Positions 4,408-31,850 of a stretch of DNA of 31,850 bases are shown here, piece after piece. Source of the stretch: a virus. The notes under the pieces are model-generated. The model was not told where the DNA came from. It made no database searches and saw only the letters and a list, made by a program, of their open reading frames with translations. The stretch lies in IMG/VR virus record IMGVR_UViG_3300035698_008552, positions 1-31,850 of that record; one strand, given 5' to 3'. A program made the position numbers and the translations under genes. Positions within the stretch are counted from its first letter, which is position 1. Each line of letters begins with the position of its first letter.

Positions 4408-4955
4408 GTGAATGATCCATCGGTTATCGCCAGCGCCTTAAAGCGGTCAAGAAATGCTTCCTTGGCTTCAAAGCTAGTCCAGCGTTGTATCTTGAAGCGC
4501 TCCACATTCAGAGGCAACTCGACAAATTGCTTACCAAGAGGAAAAAGCGCAATCGACTCATCGTAAAGGATCGCGTCGTCGTACTTTTTGATCATCGCCT
4601 TGTCCGCAGAGTCGACCGTGATTGAAAAACGCTCGTGGATAACGCCTTGCATAACACGTTCCGCAACCTCGTAGCCTGGCATCAGACCCTTGATCGGACG
4701 CGGAACGTCGACCAAGTACGCTTCTGACGCGTCGTGCATCAGCATGGCAAGCGTCAGCTTTTTGCTTTTGGTTAGCCAGAGTATCCTGTCCGCCAAGTAA
4801 ACGCAGTGCTGCGCGACCGAGTAATGATAGAGCGTGTGTCCGCTGAACCTGCACTGATTCGACAACGCGTGGGCGATGTCCTCGATGTGGATGTCCTCCA
4901 CGCTCGGATCAAGTGGAAAGACAGAAGCGCCAGTGTAAGTCCTAATCCAGCTCAT
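4404..4955 (-). CDS. HD-domain phosphohydrolase (YfbR-like)
   Basis: 183 residues with the HD metal-site pattern: H50 in HYSVAQH, the H74-D75 pair in LMHDASEAYL, followed by DVPRPIK, a segment typical of phage and YfbR-like 5'-deoxynucleotidases. A later Asp in the D-S-A-D or YDD segment (about residues 126-137) probably completes the site. The likely reaction is hydrolysis of nucleoside monophosphates or related phosphate esters, so a nucleotide-pool role fits its place as first gene of the leftward replication operon. The ATG at 4955 follows AAGAGGG. It is driven by the promoter-like sites at 4998-5026. The precise substrate cannot be inferred. Confidence 0.8.
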   Translation of the reverse strand: MSWIRTYTGASVFPLDPSVEDIHIEDIAHALSNQCRFSGHTLYHYSVAQHCVYLADRILWLTKSKKLTLAMLMHDASEAYLVDVPRPIKGLMPGYEVAERVMQGVIHERFSITVDSADKAMIKKYDDAILYDESIALFPLGKQFVELPLNVERFKIQRWTSFEAKEAFLDRFKALAITDGSFT

Positions 4956-4973
4956 GGTACCCTCTTTGCTGAC

Positions 4974-4990
4974 AGCGATCCCTTATCGCT
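4974..4990. promoter_or_regulatory. Inverted repeat at the predicted leftward start site
   Basis: AGCGAT (4974-4979) and ATCGCT (4985-4990) form a perfect 6-bp inverted repeat around CCCTT, placed at or just after the expected transcription start of the leftward promoter. It could be a repressor operator or a 5' RNA hairpin. A pair of 6-bp arms can also arise by chance. Confidence 0.35.
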
Positions 4991-4997
4991 TCGGCAG

Positions 4998-5026
4998 ACA
5001 TTACCTCCCGTGGGATAAACAGTCAA
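4998..5026 (-). promoter_or_regulatory. Candidate sigma70-type promoter for the leftward replication operon
   Basis: On the leftward strand a TTGACT box (5021-5026) is followed after exactly 17 bases by TAATGT (4998-5003). The -35 box is near consensus; the -10 matches only in part. It lies 43 bases upstream of the HD gene ATG in the divergent gap, where a promoter is required. Confidence 0.5.
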
Positions 5027-5075
5027 CTCCCCAGTCGTGGTGTCGATCTGAGATTAGAGCCACCAAATGTGGGAC

Positions 5076-5103
5076 TTGCCTTTTTTGCCGTAACGGGTGT
5101 AAA
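5076..5103 (+). promoter_or_regulatory. Candidate promoter for the primase-helicase gene
   Basis: TTGCCT (5076-5081) and TGTAAA (5098-5103) are separated by 16 bases, in the 226-base divergent gap before the rightward gene at 5182. A related arrangement (TTGCAA, 16 bases, TAATAG) precedes the gene at 8549. The box matches are moderate. The remainder of the gap shows no gene. Confidence 0.4.
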
Positions 5104-5181
5104 TGGGGATTGCTAATCAGGGCAGTAGCAACGGGGAAATATTGAAGTGATCCACCAGACATCCCACGGGATTAACAACGC

Positions 5182-7830
5182 ATGACGTTATTGTGTCATG
5201 GGGTTGGTCGTTTTCAAACGCACTCGGGAACGGGCGTTGCTTACGATGGAATAGAATGGTCGACCATCGTAACGATGTTAGGCACTCCGCAGTACGTTAA
5301 AAAGGAGGACGCTGCCTGGGTTATCGGATCCACCTACCGCGCGGACAATGGTCGAGAAGCGGTGGCGCAAAATGCGGAGGGACTGTTCTACTACATGTGG
5401 GCGGACCTGGACAAGGGTAACGCTGGCCTTTCTGACGTCGTTAACGCGTTGCGCAAAGTTTTTCCTGATGGCGAGTGGCTTGTTTACTCGACCAAGAGCT
5501 CGGAGCCAGAAAACCGAAAGTGGCGGATTATGGTGCGGATGGCGGTATCGATTGTTGGTCGAGCCTACGCCGCCTACCAGCAGGGCTTTAACGAAGCGCT
5601 TACCCAGCTAGGACTGCATCCGGATAGCTCATCAATCTCGGTCAATCGAATATGCTTTTTGCCGAACCGAGGCGCGCATTACGATACACACTACCATGAA
5701 GGACGTGCGGTTGACCTGACCGACAGTTGGTTCACGAAGCGAGCCACTGAGATATATCAAGACTTCCTGCTGCGGGACACCGAGTACCAAAAGCGCCGAA
5801 CCGAAACATCGCGCATCAAGCGCAGCGGCCACAACTCACACATCGATGCATTTCGCGCAGAGAACCCGCCAGACCAGCTCCTCGAGCGTCTCGGCTTTGT
5901 AACGCGCAACGGTATTTCATGGCACCATCCCCAACTGCAGGTCGGCCATTCGTTCGCCACCGATCTCTACGCAGACGGCGGCATATTCACTCTGAGCTCT
6001 TCCATAGGTGGACCGACAGCAGCTGGCGGCCATGCGACCAACGGCGGTTGGTACTTTAACGACGGCTACGATCTTGCGCGCTACATCTGGTTTGCCAAAG
6101 GCAAGGAGGGTGACAACCAGATGAAGGCCATCGCGGGTCAGATGCGCGACAAAAGGCAGGACTACTTCCTTGCCCACGGACGCGATCAAGCGTTGCGCAT
6201 CCTGCCGTCAATGGAAGCCGCGATCCACAAACGTAGAGGCAACAGCCTCAGCCTCGTGCAGTGGTCGGTCGAGGCACAGGCCGCTGACTTGGATCGTGCA
6301 CAAAAGGAATCACTCGAGTTGGCCGCGCTGCAAAAGCGTGCCGAGACCGACAGGATCCGAAGTCAGCACCAGCTTTGGGGTGGCGATTGGATGAAGCAGG
6401 TACCGTTCGAATTTGACGACACGGTAAACGAGTGGGAGTGGCTTGCTTGGCATGCGCCTGGTGTCCTCGGAAAGCTGGTGCGTGACAATGCGCGATTCTC
6501 CGCAAAGGCCACATTGGTGCCGAGCCTCGTAGGAGCTCTTGGCGTGCTCGCGCATAGATGCCAAGGCAAGTTTGTCATGGGCTTCTCTGGACACATAACG
6601 CCGCCATCGCTGCCCATGCTTCTCATAGGTAACTCCGGAACGGGTAAGGCTGACGCGAACAAGCTTTTCCGCAGGGTCAACAAGTACCACGAGCTGCCCG
6701 CTGCCGACTCGCGCCAAGAGGTGCGCATGTTCGCATCCGGAGCAGCGGTTACCCGACACCTTTCGCAGTACCCAAACACCATCGTAATCGACAGCGAGTA
6801 CGGGGCTGGCCAGTCAGCGATGAAGGGGAACTCAAACGGCGGCCACCACGACGACGAGCGTGCCAAGCTCACCGACGCGATGTCCGCGTTCGTAGAAGGG
6901 CTCGGCGCTTCCAAGAACTCCGACAGCGGCAAGTCAACGCCAGCGGTGCACAATCCATGCATCAGCGCAATCCTCAGCTCGACGCCTGAGCGATTCGCAG
7001 AGGCCGTTTCGGAACGCGATGCCGAGGGCAGATTTCTAGGACGCTTCGTAAGCTTCGCCGTATCGGATCCGCAGAACCTTCCCAAGCGTGATCGCGGAGT
7101 CTTCGCGGGCGACATTCCAGAGGACGTCAGGCTGTGGCTCGACTACATAGAGTCCATCGCAGCGCCGCAGACCGAACGCTTGCCAGCACCGACCGACCCA
7201 GACGGCGCACTCGGATTGGCGTGGCGCGGGCAGTACCGGTGCTTCCACATGTTGGTCCCCGACGCCGAGGCAGCAGTCGAGCTCGGAAAGCTCATCGCAC
7301 GCATGGATAAAGAACGTCAGCGAGCCATCCAGTCAGGCGAGCGAACGCGCGCACACCTCATGAACCGTGGACCAGAACGCGTCAGCAGGCTCTCGCTCAT
7401 CGCAGCGCTTGCCCAGCTGTCGCCAAGTCGACCACCAGTCATTACAGCGGACTGCGTGCGATGGGCAAACAGCGTTGTCATGGCGTCGATAAACCACTTG
7501 TCCGCAACGAGCAATAGTGGCGACGACGACAATTACGTATCGATGTGCCACGCGCGCATAAAGGATATGTTCCGTCGCATCGAAGAGGATCCGAGCTTCG
7601 CGGCCAGCCTCGGTAGCGACTGCCGGAAAGTGGACGTGCCAAGTCTCGGGGTGACAAGAACGGAAGTTAAGAGATTCAAGCTACGCTCGTATATAAGGCG
7701 CAACAAAGCAGCCGCGTATGTTTGCGACCGAGAGTTGGATTCGCTGGTGGAGGAGAGAATATTGCTCTGCAACCAGGAAGTTGTCCTCGGAAAGACGGTC
7801 ACCTATTATTCACTTATCGGGCGTATCTAG
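5182..7830 (+). CDS. Primase-helicase: PrimPol-like N-terminus plus DUF3987 ATPase
   Basis: 882 residues. The N-terminal part resembles an archaeo-eukaryotic-type primase: a WADLD segment with D75 and D77 as likely metal ligands, YSTKSSEPENRKWRI near 102-116, and DSSSISVNRICFLPNRG near 148-164, the usual three PrimPol motifs. After a linker, residues about 440-700 match DUF3987-type ATPases: Walker A GNSGTGKA at 483-490 and Walker B TIVIDSEYG ending near 541. The C-terminus (about 780-882) is basic and probably winged-helix-like. It would make primers and unwind DNA at the repeat-rich region directly downstream. The residue after the Walker lysine is Ala, not Ser/Thr. The ribosome site before ATG 5182 is weak (GGGA), so a later start is possible. 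Confidence 0.8.
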   Translation: MTLLCHGVGRFQTHSGTGVAYDGIEWSTIVTMLGTPQYVKKEDAAWVIGSTYRADNGREAVAQNAEGLFYYMWADLDKGNAGLSDVVNALRKVFPDGEWLVYSTKSSEPENRKWRIMVRMAVSIVGRAYAAYQQGFNEALTQLGLHPDSSSISVNRICFLPNRGAHYDTHYHEGRAVDLTDSWFTKRATEIYQDFLLRDTEYQKRRTETSRIKRSGHNSHIDAFRAENPPDQLLERLGFVTRNGISWHHPQLQVGHSFATDLYADGGIFTLSSSIGGPTAAGGHATNGGWYFNDGYDLARYIWFAKGKEGDNQMKAIAGQMRDKRQDYFLAHGRDQALRILPSMEAAIHKRRGNSLSLVQWSVEAQAADLDRAQKESLELAALQKRAETDRIRSQHQLWGGDWMKQVPFEFDDTVNEWEWLAWHAPGVLGKLVRDNARFSAKATLVPSLVGALGVLAHRCQGKFVMGFSGHITPPSLPMLLIGNSGTGKADANKLFRRVNKYHELPAADSRQEVRMFASGAAVTRHLSQYPNTIVIDSEYGAGQSAMKGNSNGGHHDDERAKLTDAMSAFVEGLGASKNSDSGKSTPAVHNPCISAILSSTPERFAEAVSERDAEGRFLGRFVSFAVSDPQNLPKRDRGVFAGDIPEDVRLWLDYIESIAAPQTERLPAPTDPDGALGLAWRGQYRCFHMLVPDAEAAVELGKLIARMDKERQRAIQSGERTRAHLMNRGPERVSRLSLIAALAQLSPSRPPVITADCVRWANSVVMASINHLSATSNSGDDDNYVSMCHARIKDMFRRIEEDPSFAASLGSDCRKVDVPSLGVTRTEVKRFKLRSYIRRNKAAAYVCDRELDSLVEERILLCNQEVVLGKTVTYYSLIGRI

Positions 7831-7840
7831 GCTCGTTTTT
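7818..7840 (+). terminator. Factor-independent terminator overlapping the primase-helicase stop
   Basis: CGGGC (7818-7822) pairs with GCTCG (7831-7835), including one G-U, around an 8-base loop that holds the stop codon; TTTTT follows at 7836-7840. The stem is short, but the U-run is immediate and the location is right. Confidence 0.45.
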
Positions 7841-7899
7841 GATATAAAGCGCGCAAATATCAGCGCCGCACCCAAGCCAAAAGCCCTTATTCAAAGAAA

Positions 7900-7973
7900 T
7901 CAAACGTTTAGACCAAACACTCACGACTACAATTTGATAGTCGCCAGATGCCTTTGATTTCATTGGATAATTC
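7900..7973 (+). repeat. Long repeat unit, copy 1
   Basis: Starts with TCAAACGTTTAGACCAAAC (the GTTT...AAAC hairpin-like core is at 7906-7918) and ends with TAGTCGCCAGAT then CCTTTGATTTCATTGGATAATTC (7938-7973). It corresponds to 8321-8395 with a constant offset of 420-421 bases. The 11-mer CTCACGACTAC at 7920-7930 is the reverse complement of the 11-mer at 8347-8357 in the other copy. Confidence 0.75.
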
Positions 7974-8003
7974 GGAAAAGGCAGGGGGTCACGACTATCC
8001 GGA

Positions 8004-8039
8004 AAGTCGCCACATGTCTTTGATAACGCAAGACAATTC
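8004..8039 (+). repeat. Degenerate copy of the 3' half of the long repeat
   Basis: AAGTCGCCACATGTCTTTGATAACGCAAGACAATTC aligns without gaps to 7938-7973, keeping the GTCGCCA, CTTTGAT and ACAATTC/ATAATTC blocks but diverging between them. The TTTGATAAC part instead matches the inverted copy at 8251-8275. It is followed at 8041-8049 by CTGACGACT, another inverted core. Confidence 0.55.
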
Positions 8040-8125
8040 GCTGACGACTGACTTTTAGGGGGGTCCGCGCGCCGCCGTGTGTGAAGAGACGGAACTGCAC
8101 AACTGAATAAGAATGTCAAAGAGTG

Positions 8126-8175
8126 TGAGAAAATATCGGACTCTTCAATATAATATAAAAAGAGTAAGTAATGTC
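8126..8175. other. AT-rich segment with hairpin inside the candidate origin
   Basis: This is clearly more AT-rich than the flanking coding DNA. ACTCTT (8140-8145) and AAGAGT (8160-8165) can pair around a loop made almost only of A and T. In an origin this would be the natural unwinding element. No gene fits here. Confidence 0.4.
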
Positions 8176-8250
8176 AAACTGCGGGAAGGAGTTTTGGGGG
8201 CATAGGGGAATTTAAGTCGTCAGGGGTCTAAGTGGGATAAAAGCGCGTGT

Positions 8251-8275
8251 TATCAAAGGGTTGTCTGACGACTAT
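8251..8275 (-). repeat. Inverted copy of the repeat core
   Basis: Read leftward this is ATAGTCGTCAGACAACCC followed by TTTGATA, which matches 8358-8379 (TAGTCGTCAGATAACCC then TTTGA) with a single change over 22 bases. It is therefore an inverted copy lying about 80 bases before the second long unit. Confidence 0.65.
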
Positions 8276-8320
8276 AGGTGGGGAAAATGGTAGTCGTACC
8301 TATGTAGTTATTCAATGATA

Positions 8321-8395
8321 TCAAAGGTTTAGACCAAACGTCTTGGGTAGTCGTGAGTAGTCGTCAGATAACCCTTTGAATTCGTTGGATAATTT
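8321..8395 (+). repeat. Long repeat unit, copy 2
   Basis: TCAAAGGTTTAGACCAAAC (core at 8327-8339) and, from 8358, TAGTCGTCAGATAACCC followed by TTTGAATTCGTTGGATAATTT reproduce copy 1. Tandem AGTCGTGAG and AGTCGTCAG motifs (8349-8357, 8359-8367) sit 10 bases apart, one helical turn, as expected for adjacent protein-binding sites. Confidence 0.75.
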
Positions 8396-8495
8396 AATTC
8401 TGTGTTTTTTAATATTAGGGTTGTTTTTTATTATTGGGGCTATGGAGTCTCAAAGGGCGGGTTTATTCTCAAAGTTTCGATAATAGTCAAAAGGC

Positions 8496-8523
8496 TTGCA
8501 ATATTTTTGGCGGGTGGTAATAG
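8496..8523 (+). promoter_or_regulatory. Candidate promoter for the gene at 8549
   Basis: TTGCAA (8496-8501), a 16-base spacer and TAATAG (8518-8523) precede the AAAGGAG ribosome site by a short leader. The boxes are partial matches only, but position and AT-richness fit. Confidence 0.35.
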
Positions 8524-8548
8524 AAAGTGGATCAAAAGGAGAGATGGG

Positions 8549-9370
8549 ATGCTTATTGGAAGAAGGCTGCAAGCGAGTAAGGAGCGCCGCTGGGGGAGCG
8601 TCAAGGAGATGACGTTTGCAACGCCAGAGAGCCCTGCCTCAACCACGGAGGCCATTGCCAGGATTGTAGCGAGGTTCGCTGACTGGAGTATTGAGGAGGC
8701 GCTTGAGGACTTCAACTTCGCGCTTCCATACAAGGACTACAACGAGAGCCTTCCATTGGTCGCAAGACCGATGCCACAAATCATGCGGAAGGCCGAGAGA
8801 GCTTTGTTTTCAATATTCGGTGCGGCTTCCGGATGCGCAACCGTGATCAGCTCACAATGGAATCAGCACTTCATTATTGGACGTGAGCATAGTGCCGAGG
8901 CGCTTTACACAAACTGGCAGGCCGCACTCAATATTAGAAGCTCAAAGCACTGGCGGGCGATGGCGACCATGACGCAGTCCAGACTGACTTGGTTTGAATC
9001 GCAAATGGAGATGGCCGCACGCAACGCGTTGTTTTGTCATGGCCAGGTCAATGTGCTTAAGACAGACGACCAGCAGGACGTCAACGTTTATCGCGCGCAA
9101 ATCGAAACCCGAATTTCGCGAGATAGGTTGCGTCATTTTGTGGCCGAGAAGTTTCCAAGTCTCAGGATCCGAAACGCAGGAACGGCTGATGAAGAGGTTG
9201 TGCTTCGCAGTCGAACCGACGAGGGTCTGATCCTCGGTGGCGCTGTCTGGGGAAGGGAGTACTTCGCCAACGGATCACATCTGATCAGCGCGACGATGGC
9301 CCTTCCGAAGGTAAGAGTGCGTCCACCAGGCGCTGATACGGGCGGTGGGCGTTGGTGGTACCCTGGTTGA
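8549..9370 (+). CDS. Protein of unknown function next to the candidate origin
   Basis: 273 residues from ATG 8549, chosen because AAAAGGAG lies 7 bases upstream; the open frame continues upstream to 8402 into repeat DNA without a ribosome site. No family is recognised. The N-terminus is basic (GRRLQASKERRWG). A helical middle follows, with aromatic and Trp-rich segments (SSQWNQHFIIGREHSAEALYTNW) and a run of charged residues with several Arg (RISRDRLRHFVAEKFPSLRIRN). The C-terminus is Gly/Pro/Arg-rich (PGADTGGGRWWYPG). There are no signal peptide, membrane span or cysteine clusters. Being the only rightward gene here, beside the repeats and followed by a converging operon, it could be a DNA-binding replication accessory protein, but that is only inference. 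Confidence 0.75.
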   Translation: MLIGRRLQASKERRWGSVKEMTFATPESPASTTEAIARIVARFADWSIEEALEDFNFALPYKDYNESLPLVARPMPQIMRKAERALFSIFGAASGCATVISSQWNQHFIIGREHSAEALYTNWQAALNIRSSKHWRAMATMTQSRLTWFESQMEMAARNALFCHGQVNVLKTDDQQDVNVYRAQIETRISRDRLRHFVAEKFPSLRIRNAGTADEEVVLRSRTDEGLILGGAVWGREYFANGSHLISATMALPKVRVRPPGADTGGGRWWYPG

Positions 9371-11982: not shown

Positions 11983-12774
11983 TTAAAGCCCAGCCTCGTG
12001 CATTAGTATCGCTCGTCCTATAAGTTCGGGTATCGGAGGAAAGACTGCGTTGCCGCAGGCCTTGAGTTTTAGTCGGTCCAGTGCAAGGGAAACCCCATCG
12101 CCAGTTCGTAAAGGCAGCAGACTTGATACCAGGGCACTCCCGCGTGGAGCGCTTCCGTCGCCAGCGAAGGCGTATGTCGCAGTCTGGCGGCCAAATAACC
12201 CGTTGTGCGAGATAAGTCTTTGCCGTCCCTCGCGTTGGGTGTAGGCCACAAGCCAGATCCTCTCTCTGCGATGCGAAGCGCCCATGGCTGCTGCGGGTAT
12301 ATTTTCCCATTCCGCATCATACCCGCGTTCGGCCAGGTCTCCGAGTATTCTACCAAACCATCCTCCTGGCTTGGACTTTGGCCCAGCAAGCAAAGCTGCG
12401 ACGTTTTCCACGATGACGTATTCTGGTCGTAGCTCGCCAACAAGTCTTGCAATTTCACTCCACAATCCACTTCGTGTTCCTTCGCCAATTCCAGCCTGCC
12501 TTCCCGCTACGCTGATGTCCTGGCACGGAAACCCGCCAGTGATTACATCAACGGTGATTGAGTCATTGTCAAGTACGTCGCGCGTTAGCTCGGTCACGTC
12601 GGCATAGCATGGCACGTCGGGCCAGTGCTTGCGGAGTATCGAACGCGGGAACTTCTCAATCTCGCAGAACGCCACGGTCTCGAAGCCTCCCGTGCGTTCG
12701 AGGCCAAGGCTGAATCCGCCGATGCCGCTGAACAAGTCAAGCACGCGAAGCTTCTTTTTTACGGCGTCAGGCAA
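11983..12774 (-). CDS. C5-cytosine DNA methyltransferase
   Basis: 263 residues with the ordered C5-methyltransferase motifs: I, DLFSGIGGFSLG (13-24); IV, GGFPCQDIS with catalytic C84; VI, ENV (123-125); VIII, RRERIWLVA (169-177); and X, GNAVFPPIPELIG (241-253). It would transfer a methyl group from S-adenosylmethionine to cytosine C5 in a specific site. The variable target-recognition stretch is only about 50 residues, so the enzyme is compact for the family. The start is TTG 12774: an in-frame TAA lies directly before it, and AGGGAG is 9 bases upstream. No restriction enzyme is adjacent, so a solitary phage methyltransferase protecting phage DNA is likely. Target sequence unknown. Confidence 0.93.
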   Translation of the reverse strand: MPDAVKKKLRVLDLFSGIGGFSLGLERTGGFETVAFCEIEKFPRSILRKHWPDVPCYADVTELTRDVLDNDSITVDVITGGFPCQDISVAGRQAGIGEGTRSGLWSEIARLVGELRPEYVIVENVAALLAGPKSKPGGWFGRILGDLAERGYDAEWENIPAAAMGASHRRERIWLVAYTQREGRQRLISHNGLFGRQTATYAFAGDGSAPRGSALVSSLLPLRTGDGVSLALDRLKLKACGNAVFPPIPELIGRAILMHEAGL

Positions 12775-13272: not shown

Positions 13273-14109
13273 TTAGGTCTCCTTTGGTGTGATGCCTTGT
13301 GTATGTGCTGCGTGGTTCATAATTCTGTCAACCGATTTGTCAGCGTACTCGAGACTTATCTCGCAGCCGACCCATCGCCTGCCAGTCTCGATGGCAGCGC
13401 ATGCTGTCGTACCGCTGCCCATAAACGGATCGAGCACGCAGTCTCCAGGATTCGACCAGGAAAGAATATGGTCTCTTGGAAGGGCGATAGGAAACATCGC
13501 AGGGTGCGTGTTGTCTGCGCGACTGTTCTTTTCCTCGTTTATTTGCCAGACGTTAAAGCGATGCCCAAAAGATGGTATCAGCTGCCCCTTATTCTGCTTT
13601 GCAGCAGCCGCCAGAGTACCGTCTTTTTTCCTGGTTGAGCCCTTTCGCTGGGCGTAACCTGCGTACTTATTGGGCCTGTCCTTTATTGGATTAAACGTGC
13701 GCAGCTTGCCCTTTACAAAAACAAACATGTACTCGAAAAGTTGGGGATACCGAAAACCAATCCCGCCGATAGTTCCAAACGTGGACTTATACCAAATCAT
13801 CGTATCGTTCAGTTTGAATCCGCAATGGTCAACAAAATGAATGGCTTGGCGAAAGCTTGTGCATGTCTCGCTGCCTTTAGCGGTGGCATCACTGACGTTC
13901 CAGACTACCACTCCGCCATCTTTTGTCACGCGATAAAGCTCCGCCGCGAGCGATTCAAAGTCAAACGAATAGCCTTTGTAGTCGCGCAGGTTGTCGTACG
14001 GCGGCGACGTCACGGTAAGATCAATAACGCCGTCGGGAATTGTCCGGAGCACCTCTACGTTGTCGCCAACGTATAGTCTGCCGTTTCGAATGTCCTTGAA
14101 CACAGCCAT
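13273..14109 (-). CDS. Beta-class DNA methyltransferase (N6-adenine or N4-cytosine)
   Basis: 278 residues. The catalytic motif TSPPY (34-38) precedes the S-adenosylmethionine-binding motif DPFMGSGTT (227-235), which is the beta-class order. Between them lies a target-recognition region of about 120 residues containing basic stretches (KDRPNKYAGYAQRKGSTRKK). A GCEIS segment after motif I (about 248-252) is also typical. The serine in SPPY is found in both N4-cytosine and N6-adenine enzymes, so the modified base cannot be decided. The ATG is directly adjacent to the upstream TGA (TGAATG). No restriction endonuclease neighbours it, so it is probably a solitary protective methyltransferase. Confidence 0.92.
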   Translation of the reverse strand: MAVFKDIRNGRLYVGDNVEVLRTIPDGVIDLTVTSPPYDNLRDYKGYSFDFESLAAELYRVTKDGGVVVWNVSDATAKGSETCTSFRQAIHFVDHCGFKLNDTMIWYKSTFGTIGGIGFRYPQLFEYMFVFVKGKLRTFNPIKDRPNKYAGYAQRKGSTRKKDGTLAAAAKQNKGQLIPSFGHRFNVWQINEEKNSRADNTHPAMFPIALPRDHILSWSNPGDCVLDPFMGSGTTACAAIETGRRWVGCEISLEYADKSVDRIMNHAAHTQGITPKET

Positions 14110-14600: not shown

Positions 14601-14831
14601 TTAGTGGGCGGTGACCTTCGCGCCGGAAAAGCAGGCGTAGCGTGGCTTGCCTTGGGATTGACCGTTGATCATCATGGGAGCGCCAGTCGAGTCGGTCTTG
14701 AAGAACTCGTAGCCAGCCTTTGCCCAGTCAGCGCGGTGCTTGGCCTTGACCTGAATCGACTTTGCGTAGGTGGTGATGCAGACCGTCTTGTTGTTGTCCA
14801 GGGCGGCGTTGATTTGCTCGATCAGGGTCAT
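14601..14831 (-). CDS. Small hypothetical protein with conserved leader
   Basis: 76 residues beginning MTLIEQINAALDNNKTVCITTYAKS, with AAAGGA about 8 bases upstream. The first residues, MTLIE, are shared with the next upstream small gene (14912-15079), though the rest does not obviously align. It has a basic central helix (AKHRADWAKAGYEF) and a polar C-terminus, with no known domain. One of the conserved leaders lies at 14848-14870, and a 9-bp hairpin precedes it. Function unknown. Confidence 0.7.
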   Translation of the reverse strand: MTLIEQINAALDNNKTVCITTYAKSIQVKAKHRADWAKAGYEFFKTDSTGAPMMINGQSQGKPRYACFSGAKVTAH

Positions 14832-14847
14832 GGTTCTTTTCCTTTGC

Positions 14848-29870: not shown

Positions 29871-31850
29871 ATGACCGACATGGCCACCTTGGGTTTTGAC
29901 GTCGATAGTCGTCCAGTAAAGGGTGCAACCGACGATGTCGATAAACTCGGCAAGCAGGGCGCACAAACTGACGCTAAGCTGAAAGGGTCAACCGAGAACA
30001 TCAACCGTTCCTTCGGAAGCGTTTCCAAGAGCGTAAGAGTTGCCGCTGCAGCAGTAGCCGTTTTCGCGGCGGCGGCGTTGGCGGCGGCTGCTGGATCTGT
30101 AGGCAGGTTTATCGATGCCACCGTGACGACTGAGAAGGCGCAAGCGCAGCTTGCGGCTGCTATACGATCAACTGGAGGGGCGGCAGAAAAAACGGCGTCA
30201 GACCTTAACAGTCATGCGGCATCGCTGCAAAGGATCACTAACTTCGGTGATGAGGCCATCAACTCCATGCAGGGCCTTCTTCTGACGTTCACCAACATCA
30301 AGGGCGATCAGTTTGACGCGGCAACCGTCGCTGTGCTGAACCTTTCGACAGCTATGGGAACCGACCTGAACTCTGCGGCGCTTCAGATCGGTAAGGCGCT
30401 GAACGACCCCGTCCTGGGCATGACAGCCTTGTCACGCTCTGGCATTCAGTTCACCGAGGTCCAGAAAGCCACCGTCAAAGAGATGGTAGCGATGAACGAT
30501 ACTGTCGGTGCGCAGACTATAATACTCGCTGAGTTAGAACGGCAGTTTGGTGGATCCGCTGAAGCAGCTCGCGCTACGCTGGGAGGAGCGCTAGTCTCGT
30601 TGCGTAACGCGTTCGGTGACTTGTTCGAGATTAGCGGTCCAGCAGCTGATGGACTACGTAGCGCAGTCGAGGCGTTGATCACAACCATAAATGATCCACG
30701 GTTTGTGGCTGGATTTCAATCAATTGGCGCGGCGTTGTTCGGCATGGTTGAACTCGGTCTGCAAGCTCTTAACGGTCTGGGGCTGGCCTTTGCTTTTGTC
30801 GCGGACAACTTCGATATCATAGCGGCCAGCGCTGGTGTCGCTGCCACCGTTTTTGGTGGTCCTTATGTCGCTGGCCTGGCAGCGGCGGCGGTCGCCACCT
30901 TCTCGCTTACTGGCGCGCTTGCGATTCTTAAAGCGGCACTGATCGCGACAGGTATAGGCGCGCTGATCGTCGGCGCTGGTTTTCTGATCGCCATGTTCGG
31001 TCGGCTTGTAACGGCAGTTGGCGGTTTTGGTAATGCAATGTCGTTGCTTGGTGAAGTTGCTGAAGGCGTTTTTCAAGGAATCAAGACAAGCGGATCAGCA
31101 TTAGCGCCAGCTCTTGGCGCGGTGTTCCAAACAATTAAAGCTGGCTTTATGAGCATGATTGCTGGTATTACGGAAACGTACACCAGCTTTCTTCGCACTG
31201 TAACAAACGGAATGGCTAACATTCCAGGCGCAGAAGCGGCTACGCTTCTGCTGAGTGAGGCGTCGATTCGAGCCGGATCTAAAGTGTACGAGTTTAGTGC
31301 AGCCGCTGATGCCGCAAGCGAAAGTGCGGAAACACTTCGTGTTCGCGCTGGTGCGTTAGCGACTCAGGGTTTTGAAGCGGCTGGCGCAGCGCTGCAAAAG
31401 CTTAACGTGAAGGTCACCGAAAATGCCGAGGAGACTGAATCGGCAACCAAGGCTTCTAGTAAGCTTAGCGGTGAACTAGAAGCCATCGGAGGTAAGTCTG
31501 GCGGCGGAAAAGGGTCAGCCAAAAAAGCGGCTGACAGCATCGACGAGGCGACCAAGGCAGCAGAAGCACTGCGTAAGGAAATGGAAGCGCCACTTGTGTC
31601 GGCCATCGACAGCGTGTCTAACGCCTTCGGTGACTTCGTGTCTCGAGGATTCAAGGACTTCAAGGGCTTTAAGGATGCCATCCTTAACAGCTTCAAGTCC
31701 ATGCTTTCGCAGATGATTGCCATGGCAGTAAAGAACCGCATCATGATCAGCCTCGGTCTTTCGGGCGGCGGCGTTGGCGGCGCTGGTGCAGCCCTTGCTG
31801 GCGCGGCTGGGGGTGGCGGGCCATTGGGGATGCTCGGCAGCTTGGGCGGC
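29871..31850 (+). CDS. Tape measure protein (incomplete at window end)
   Basis: The frame from ATG 29871 is open for 660 residues to the window edge. It begins MTDMATLGFDVDSRPVKGA, then an Ala-rich hydrophobic helix (about residues 55-75), a FNVKGDQFD-like TFTNIKGDQFDAATVAVLNLS segment, KALNDPVLGMTALSRSGIQFT, and a central hydrophobic stretch (about 285-360, AASAGVAATVFGG to FLIAMFGRL) suggesting membrane-active segments. Later it is Ala/Ser/Lys-rich, and the visible end holds SVSNAFGDFVSRGFKDFKG and a Gly-rich tail. These are tape-measure traits: it sets tail length and helps DNA entry. The total length cannot be judged. Confidence 0.93.
   Translation, partial: MTDMATLGFDVDSRPVKGATDDVDKLGKQGAQTDAKLKGSTENINRSFGSVSKSVRVAAAAVAVFAAAALAAAAGSVGRFIDATVTTEKAQAQLAAAIRSTGGAAEKTASDLNSHAASLQRITNFGDEAINSMQGLLLTFTNIKGDQFDAATVAVLNLSTAMGTDLNSAALQIGKALNDPVLGMTALSRSGIQFTEVQKATVKEMVAMNDTVGAQTIILAELERQFGGSAEAARATLGGALVSLRNAFGDLFEISGPAADGLRSAVEALITTINDPRFVAGFQSIGAALFGMVELGLQALNGLGLAFAFVADNFDIIAASAGVAATVFGGPYVAGLAAAAVATFSLTGALAILKAALIATGIGALIVGAGFLIAMFGRLVTAVGGFGNAMSLLGEVAEGVFQGIKTSGSALAPALGAVFQTIKAGFMSMIAGITETYTSFLRTVTNGMANIPGAEAATLLLSEASIRAGSKVYEFSAAADAASESAETLRVRAGALATQGFEAAGAALQKLNVKVTENAEETESATKASSKLSGELEAIGGKSGGGKGSAKKAADSIDEATKAAEALRKEMEAPLVSAIDSVSNAFGDFVSRGFKDFKGFKDAILNSFKSMLSQMIAMAVKNRIMISLGLSGGGVGGAGAALAGAAGGGGPLGMLGSLGG

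Follow-up and report, generated by a model that had tools for sequence, protein, structure and literature searches.

The window analysed here is the whole 31,850-base record of an uncultivated tailed phage. Its structural genes (terminase, 19549 on, portal, protease, major head and tape-measure) start at ~19.5 kb, and its left part carries a replication module. To the left of the plus-strand primase-helicase gene (Table 1), minus-strand genes encode a Cas4-type exonuclease, RNase H, SSB, Sak4 and a phosphatase. Directly after the primase-helicase gene lie 718 bases in which repeats start ~57 bp past the stop codon. No ORF in these bases is conserved in the close relative IMGVR_UViG_3300032462_000036, in agreement with the sequence-only reading, which had found no credible gene in this ~720-base stretch. 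The next gene encodes an orphan protein with one homologue and no Pfam, PHROGs, NCBIfam or PDB relative; it has a conserved C-terminal GADxGGGRWW motif, and its structure model (pLDDT 33) was useless. Further to the right, two minus-strand genes (11983–12774 and 13273–14109) encode DNA methyltransferases (C5-type and phrog_67).

Table 1. Features of the primase-helicase locus (window coordinates)
Feature	Position	Strand	Remarks
Primase-helicase, candidate initiator	5182–7830	+	882 aa; DUF3987/phrog_3022 C-terminal half; predicted winged helix ~residues 779–882
Candidate origin region, non-coding	7831–8548		42% GC in a 55% GC contig
Unit A	7887–7972		Two half-sites, inverted repeat; arms 7887–7904 and 7953–7970; inner CGACTA/TAGTCG dyad
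IHF consensus, A-left	7898–7910	+	Perfect match to WATCAANNNNTTR
Half-site B	7989–8035		Single, inward-facing; left partner of D
Dyad centre	8125–8177		AT-rich divergent promoter-like pair; both promoters matched in the relative
Half-site D	8243–8275		Single, inward-facing; right partner of B
IHF consensus, D	8251–8263	+	Perfect match to WATCAANNNNTTR
Unit E	8308–8396		Inverted repeat like A, which it mirrors
IHF consensus, E-left	8319–8331	+	Perfect match to WATCAANNNNTTR
Unwinding-element-like AT-rich segment	8376–8440		Least stable 60 bp of the window; 18-nt AT-rich repeats 8403–8420 and 8422–8439
Orphan gene	8549–9370	+	273 aa; 56% identical in the relative (L004 9453–10286)

A palindromic array of bipartite half-sites

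The sequence-only reading had described nine TCAAAG/CTTTGA copies and about ten AGTCG-type cores in this region. Every position given for the nine copies proved correct, and both words occurred far above chance under a Markov model: 9 copies of TCAAAG/CTTTGA against 0.61 expected (maximum 5 in 2000), and 10 copies of AGTCG/CGACT against 1.06. Three of the CTTTGA copies (8116, 8450 and 8469) are not part of the symmetric array described below. The same reading had recognised an AT-rich segment (8388–8440), a degenerate unit and an inverted partial unit, all of which are present, the latter two being half-sites B and D. The two '75-bp units' that it had also proposed are real (A and E; 32-nt ends 91% alike, 22-nt ends 91% alike, spacing 421–422 bp), but they are ~86–89 bp long and each is an inverted repeat of two half-sites, 16–17 of the 18 arm positions pairing when G-T is allowed. 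The array is therefore better described, in place of 'multi-type iterons', as six copies of one bipartite half-site, in which box 1 (approximately TTATCCAANGAAATCAAAG) is followed after a few bases by box 2 (approximately TCTGACGACTA). Some copies have a clear box 2; in others, chiefly the left-hand parts of units A and E, it is degenerate or displaced.

The orientations of the half-sites read + − − on the left and + + − on the right, and the array is mirror-symmetric about 8138–8140 (pair midpoints 8139.5, 8139.0 and 8138.0), a feature that the earlier reading had missed. In the relative the corresponding midpoints are 8965.5, 8966.5 and 8965.0, so that the symmetry holds within 2 bp in both phages. 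Random layouts came within 3 bp of symmetry in 194 of 400,000 trials, which speaks against chance and not for any given function, as an inverted duplication could yield such symmetry; the arrangement could in part be a relic of one.

The relative, the one close relative found, encodes a primase 84% identical to that of the window, followed by a protein 56% identical. The intergenic blocks are all collinear, whereas the DNA between them has diverged and the total length differs (718 vs 803 bp). Spacings between half-sites are 57-66-230-68-58 bp in the window and 59-66-218-69-57 bp in the relative. The comparison of relatives for conserved copies, which had been suggested as a check, thus found blocks, orientations and spacings kept, a conservation that rests on two sequences. 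Copies within one phage resemble one another (B and D are 85% alike over 52 nt in the relative), as would be expected if the sites co-evolve with a binding protein. A contig-wide search found no copies of the array in the rest of the contig, and BLASTN found no relative of the region among phage records at E 1e-5, with chance matches only at E 10. The pattern GTCGTCAGA..CTTTGAT, tried as a locus finder, gave matches that were apparently due to chance and no further locus with a site cluster. Elsewhere in the two phages, a 231-bp block (window 14602–14832, L004 13060–13290) is 93% identical within surroundings that are ~65–80% alike and differ in gene order; it contains a 76-aa ORF with no assigned family.

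When 60-bp stretches of the 31.85-kb window were ranked by nearest-neighbour energy, the five least stable all fell in or at the region (8376, 8107, 8273, 8463 and 7880). At the dyad centre, the minus-strand promoter-like sequence (8177–8150) is near-perfect, TTGACA-16-TATTAT (TTGAGA-16-TATTAT in the relative), and the plus-strand one (8125–8154) is weaker, GTGAGA-18-TATAAT. The region has no perfect DnaA box; TTATCCAA resembles one. GC skew gave no clean switch, its profile being confounded by gene direction.

Box 1, the IHF consensus and the predicted winged helix

Box 1 coincides in part with WATCAANNNNTTR, the consensus for IHF binding given in PMC10380432. Perfect matches to this consensus number three in the region and none elsewhere in the window, with 0.017 expected. 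In the relative's record three of four matches are located in the region; the corresponding fractions for the gap region discussed below are 3/4 in the complete KL1 genome, 2/4 in UF_RH5, 2/4 in PaMx10, 2/5 in LPPA15, 2/7 in FtMidnight and 1/9 in QH3. In QH3 (PP932004), four perfect matches are also clustered at 34569–35001, within a virion structural gene. When the half-sites of the window and the relative were considered together, a perfect match was present in all but one of the six plus-oriented sites (A-left, D and E-left in both phages) and in none of the six others. Phages classically use IHF at origins, attP and cos/pac regions, which is why we propose box 1 as a site for a bending protein. 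Box 1 is conserved beyond the consensus, and just 15 of the 75 sites examined among viral contigs fit its TTR part, so that a factor other than IHF is possible. We consider the chances about even that box 1 is bound by IHF or a similar protein.

A DNA-only scan for CTTTGATTTCNTTGGATAA matched five contigs, the close relative among them. In another, IMGVR_UViG_3300020045_013381, box 1 lies in AT-rich non-coding DNA 222 bp downstream of a phrog_3022 primase-helicase gene (E 2.3e-42), whose product is 28% identical to the window's protein. The box-1 sequence TTATCCAATGAAATCAANG occurred in 74 viral contigs (IMG/VR; L167–L235), as against one for the reversed pattern. The sites represent about 29 sequence contexts, 21 of which have no frame of at least 110 aa across the site. 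A large group adjoins tRNA 3′-end sequence in phages with a tyrosine integrase and is attP-like; in L175, L188, L197 and their relatives box 1 is immediately next to TTAATCAATTGGTCGTAGGTTCGATCCCTACCGCCGGAGCCA, a tRNA 3′ end, and this arrangement is probably attP, although ARAGORN called no complete tRNA there. Further sites lie near terminase genes. Fourteen matches to the box-1 19-mer in the genome_contigs set, in which no primase relatives were found, were mostly within long open frames. In a profile search of 88 box-1 loci, a primase-helicase was detected only in the relative and L126, and most box-1 sites are therefore not established as origins. The occurrence of box 1 at non-origin places in other phages counts against the origin reading. 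A literature search for box 1 returned no relevant paper. Tentatively, and with somewhat more doubt than belief, we propose that TTATCCAATGAAATCAANG may be an undescribed cis-element common to many unrelated phages, to which a host bending protein (IHF or similar) would bind with high affinity at places where looped complexes form (origins, attP, packaging), and which is employed here in a palindromic array that would position two opposed primase-helicase complexes.

For box 2, the primase-helicase itself is a candidate ligand. Modelling of its last 183 residues predicted a winged helix at ~779–882, with 10-residue means mostly at pLDDT 61–87 (mean pLDDT of the winged-helix model 64.7; best VIA Z 7.4; shallow alignment of two sequences). 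Winged helices are common, and the model permits DNA binding without demonstrating it. Binding of box 2 by this C-terminus is a suggestion that we rate at slightly below even.

Comparison with other phages and known origins

The C-terminal half of the primase-helicase is ~25% identical to Septimatrevirus/Kilunavirus proteins. In UF_RH5, KL1, QH3, FtMidnight and LPPA15 an AT-rich gap of 318–930 bp is located 0.6–1.4 kb downstream of the primase-helicase gene (31416–31777 of OQ319036 in UF_RH5), and the left-hand gene order of the first four matches that of the window (the LPPA15 stretch is cut off on the left). Most of these AT-rich islands contain inverted TAAGTC-N-TTGAT sites, and in KL1, QH3, LPPA15 and UF_RH5 an inverted pair of related sites 146–162 bp apart surrounds an AT-rich core. 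QH3 contains TCCAATGAAATCAACGACTTAG, with 14 bases common to box 1. The box-1 weight matrix alone gave marginal results, the best gap P values being 0.025 in QH3 and 0.05 in FtMidnight, with none in UF_RH5. The Septimatrevirus/Kilunavirus module (phage 73, UF_RH5, KL1, QH3 and LPPA15) is thus like that of the window in its exonuclease-SSB-Sak4-phosphatase genes followed by a divergent primase-helicase and a non-coding, AT-rich island whose WATCAANGACTTA sites are mostly inverted. It is unlike the window in its primase (~25% identity), in having a single inverted site pair of about 145–160 bp (four phages) without outer A/E units, and in a small regulator gene before the primase that was not recognised in the window, where the 63-aa ORF upstream (4954–5145) was unsupported as a Septimatrevirus HTH regulator. 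More distant primase relatives (Knedl, Seurat, Axy20, S0112, CRP-831 and VCLv21) had nothing similar, and no IHF cluster, near the primase gene, which counts against the origin reading.

Two other sites came to light in these comparisons. An 80–100 bp AT-rich intergenic block (NC_007806 36824–36925 and relatives) is 85–90% identical among Septimatrevirus-type phages of Pseudomonas, Xanthomonas and Stenotrophomonas, and is likely to be the Septimatrevirus-type origin core; no origin is named for phages of this type in PMC3483164 or PMC4559383. Vibrio phage 168E36-1 (OX241434) has non-coding GTATTGGGT-type repeats and TAAGTCTTTGATA at 44977–45418, just past a RepA-like helicase gene, a candidate origin.

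Several known origins share parts of this layout. In P4 the iterons are type I repeats of about 10 bp in both orientations, and crr lies far from ori. Like P4 alpha, which fuses primase, helicase and initiator in one protein (PMC7145576), the window would have these functions in a single polypeptide beside iterons in both orientations; it differs in protein family (DUF3987/phrog_3022) and in the one locus seen, as against P4's ori plus distant crr. The origins of SaPI and SCCmec lie directly downstream of the helicase gene, the C-terminal domain of the helicase binds their repeats, and SaPI Rep is thought to bind as two hexamers (PMC7581432). SaPI Rep and SCCmec Cch2 thus resemble the window in having repeats directly past the initiator-helicase gene, but those staphylococcal elements have short iterons (about 5-nt in SCCmec), whereas the window has long bipartite half-sites in a mirror-symmetric palindromic array over the IHF consensus, and primase and helicase fused. 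Iteron plasmids and E. coli oriC with IHF (PMC4980987, PMC10380432) also combine initiator repeats, an IHF bending site and an AT-rich unwinding element; unlike them, the window has no perfect DnaA box, palindromic rather than tandem sites and no Rep family protein. Among the scanned proteins there was no Rep-family match, which speaks against an iteron plasmid Rep origin.

A candidate replication origin

The earlier reading had assigned an origin function to 7831–8548 from its position alone. That proposal has gained support from the conserved architecture in the relative and from the least stable DNA of the contig, and further from the synteny with Septimatrevirus, the blind match 222 bp past a phrog_3022 gene and the precedent of PMC7581432. 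The repeat counts far above chance, the mirror symmetry, the clustered IHF-consensus matches and the winged-helix model also speak for it. As in initiator-helicase origins, the repeats adjoin the primase-helicase gene and an easily melted AT-rich segment is present. We infer that 7831–8548 is probably a phage replication origin, and its best reading is an initiator-helicase origin of the SaPI/P4 type with an unusual palindromic layout.

The region could instead be an operator/promoter region, in which a phage regulator on the half-sites controls the central promoters and the orphan gene while replication starts elsewhere. We regard this as unlikely: the divergent sigma-70-like promoters do lie at the exact dyad centre, the minus-strand one conserved, with sites symmetric on either side, but six half-sites across 480 bp are many for an operator, no conserved protein would come from the minus-strand transcript, the five least stable stretches coincide with the region, and the position downstream of the primase is kept in phages with different downstream genes. 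Much less probable is a structured RNA, with units A and E forming long transcript hairpins of an antisense RNA or an orphan-gene leader. Both units are more stably folded than shuffled sequences (z −3.1 to −5.8), yet this is expected of any inverted repeat; covariation is not consistent, since of seven pairs that differ between the two phages four gain or lose pairing and only one is a double change, no Rfam match was found, and the same half-site is single in B and D and present in other phages.

A site for site-specific recombination, partition or packaging is equally improbable. The inverted arms around a spacer, and the proximity of box 1 to attP-like DNA and terminase genes in other phages, would suit such a site. 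Against it, neither the window nor the relative, whose records may be fragments, encodes a tyrosine or serine recombinase or ParB, and the terminase genes are 11 kb away. We give least credence to non-functional debris of an inverted duplication or mobile element, for while the partial homogenisation of copies within a phage (as for B and D in the relative) would be expected of it, spacing and orientation have been kept while the DNA between diverged, and the contig holds no further copies.

Under the preferred interpretation as an initiator-helicase origin, the C-terminal winged helix of the primase-helicase would bind the half-sites, and the inward-facing half-sites B and D would carry two oppositely facing complexes, units A and E acting as enhancer-like pairs further out. 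Bound at box 1, IHF of the host or a similar bending protein would fold the arms together, the AT-rich DNA would melt at the centre and/or at 8376–8440, and the helicase would be loaded both ways, giving bidirectional replication; opposed loading at B/D and bidirectionality are suggested by the symmetry. The promoters at the centre may contribute transcriptional activation or serve to express the downstream gene.

The region would provide a precise candidate origin for siphophages with DUF3987/phrog_3022 primase-helicases, including the well-sampled Septimatrevirus, and the model specifies, as predictions, the protein bound to each set of bases and the place of strand opening. Box 1 may also offer a DNA-only handle with which origins, attachment sites and packaging sites could be found in viral metagenomes.
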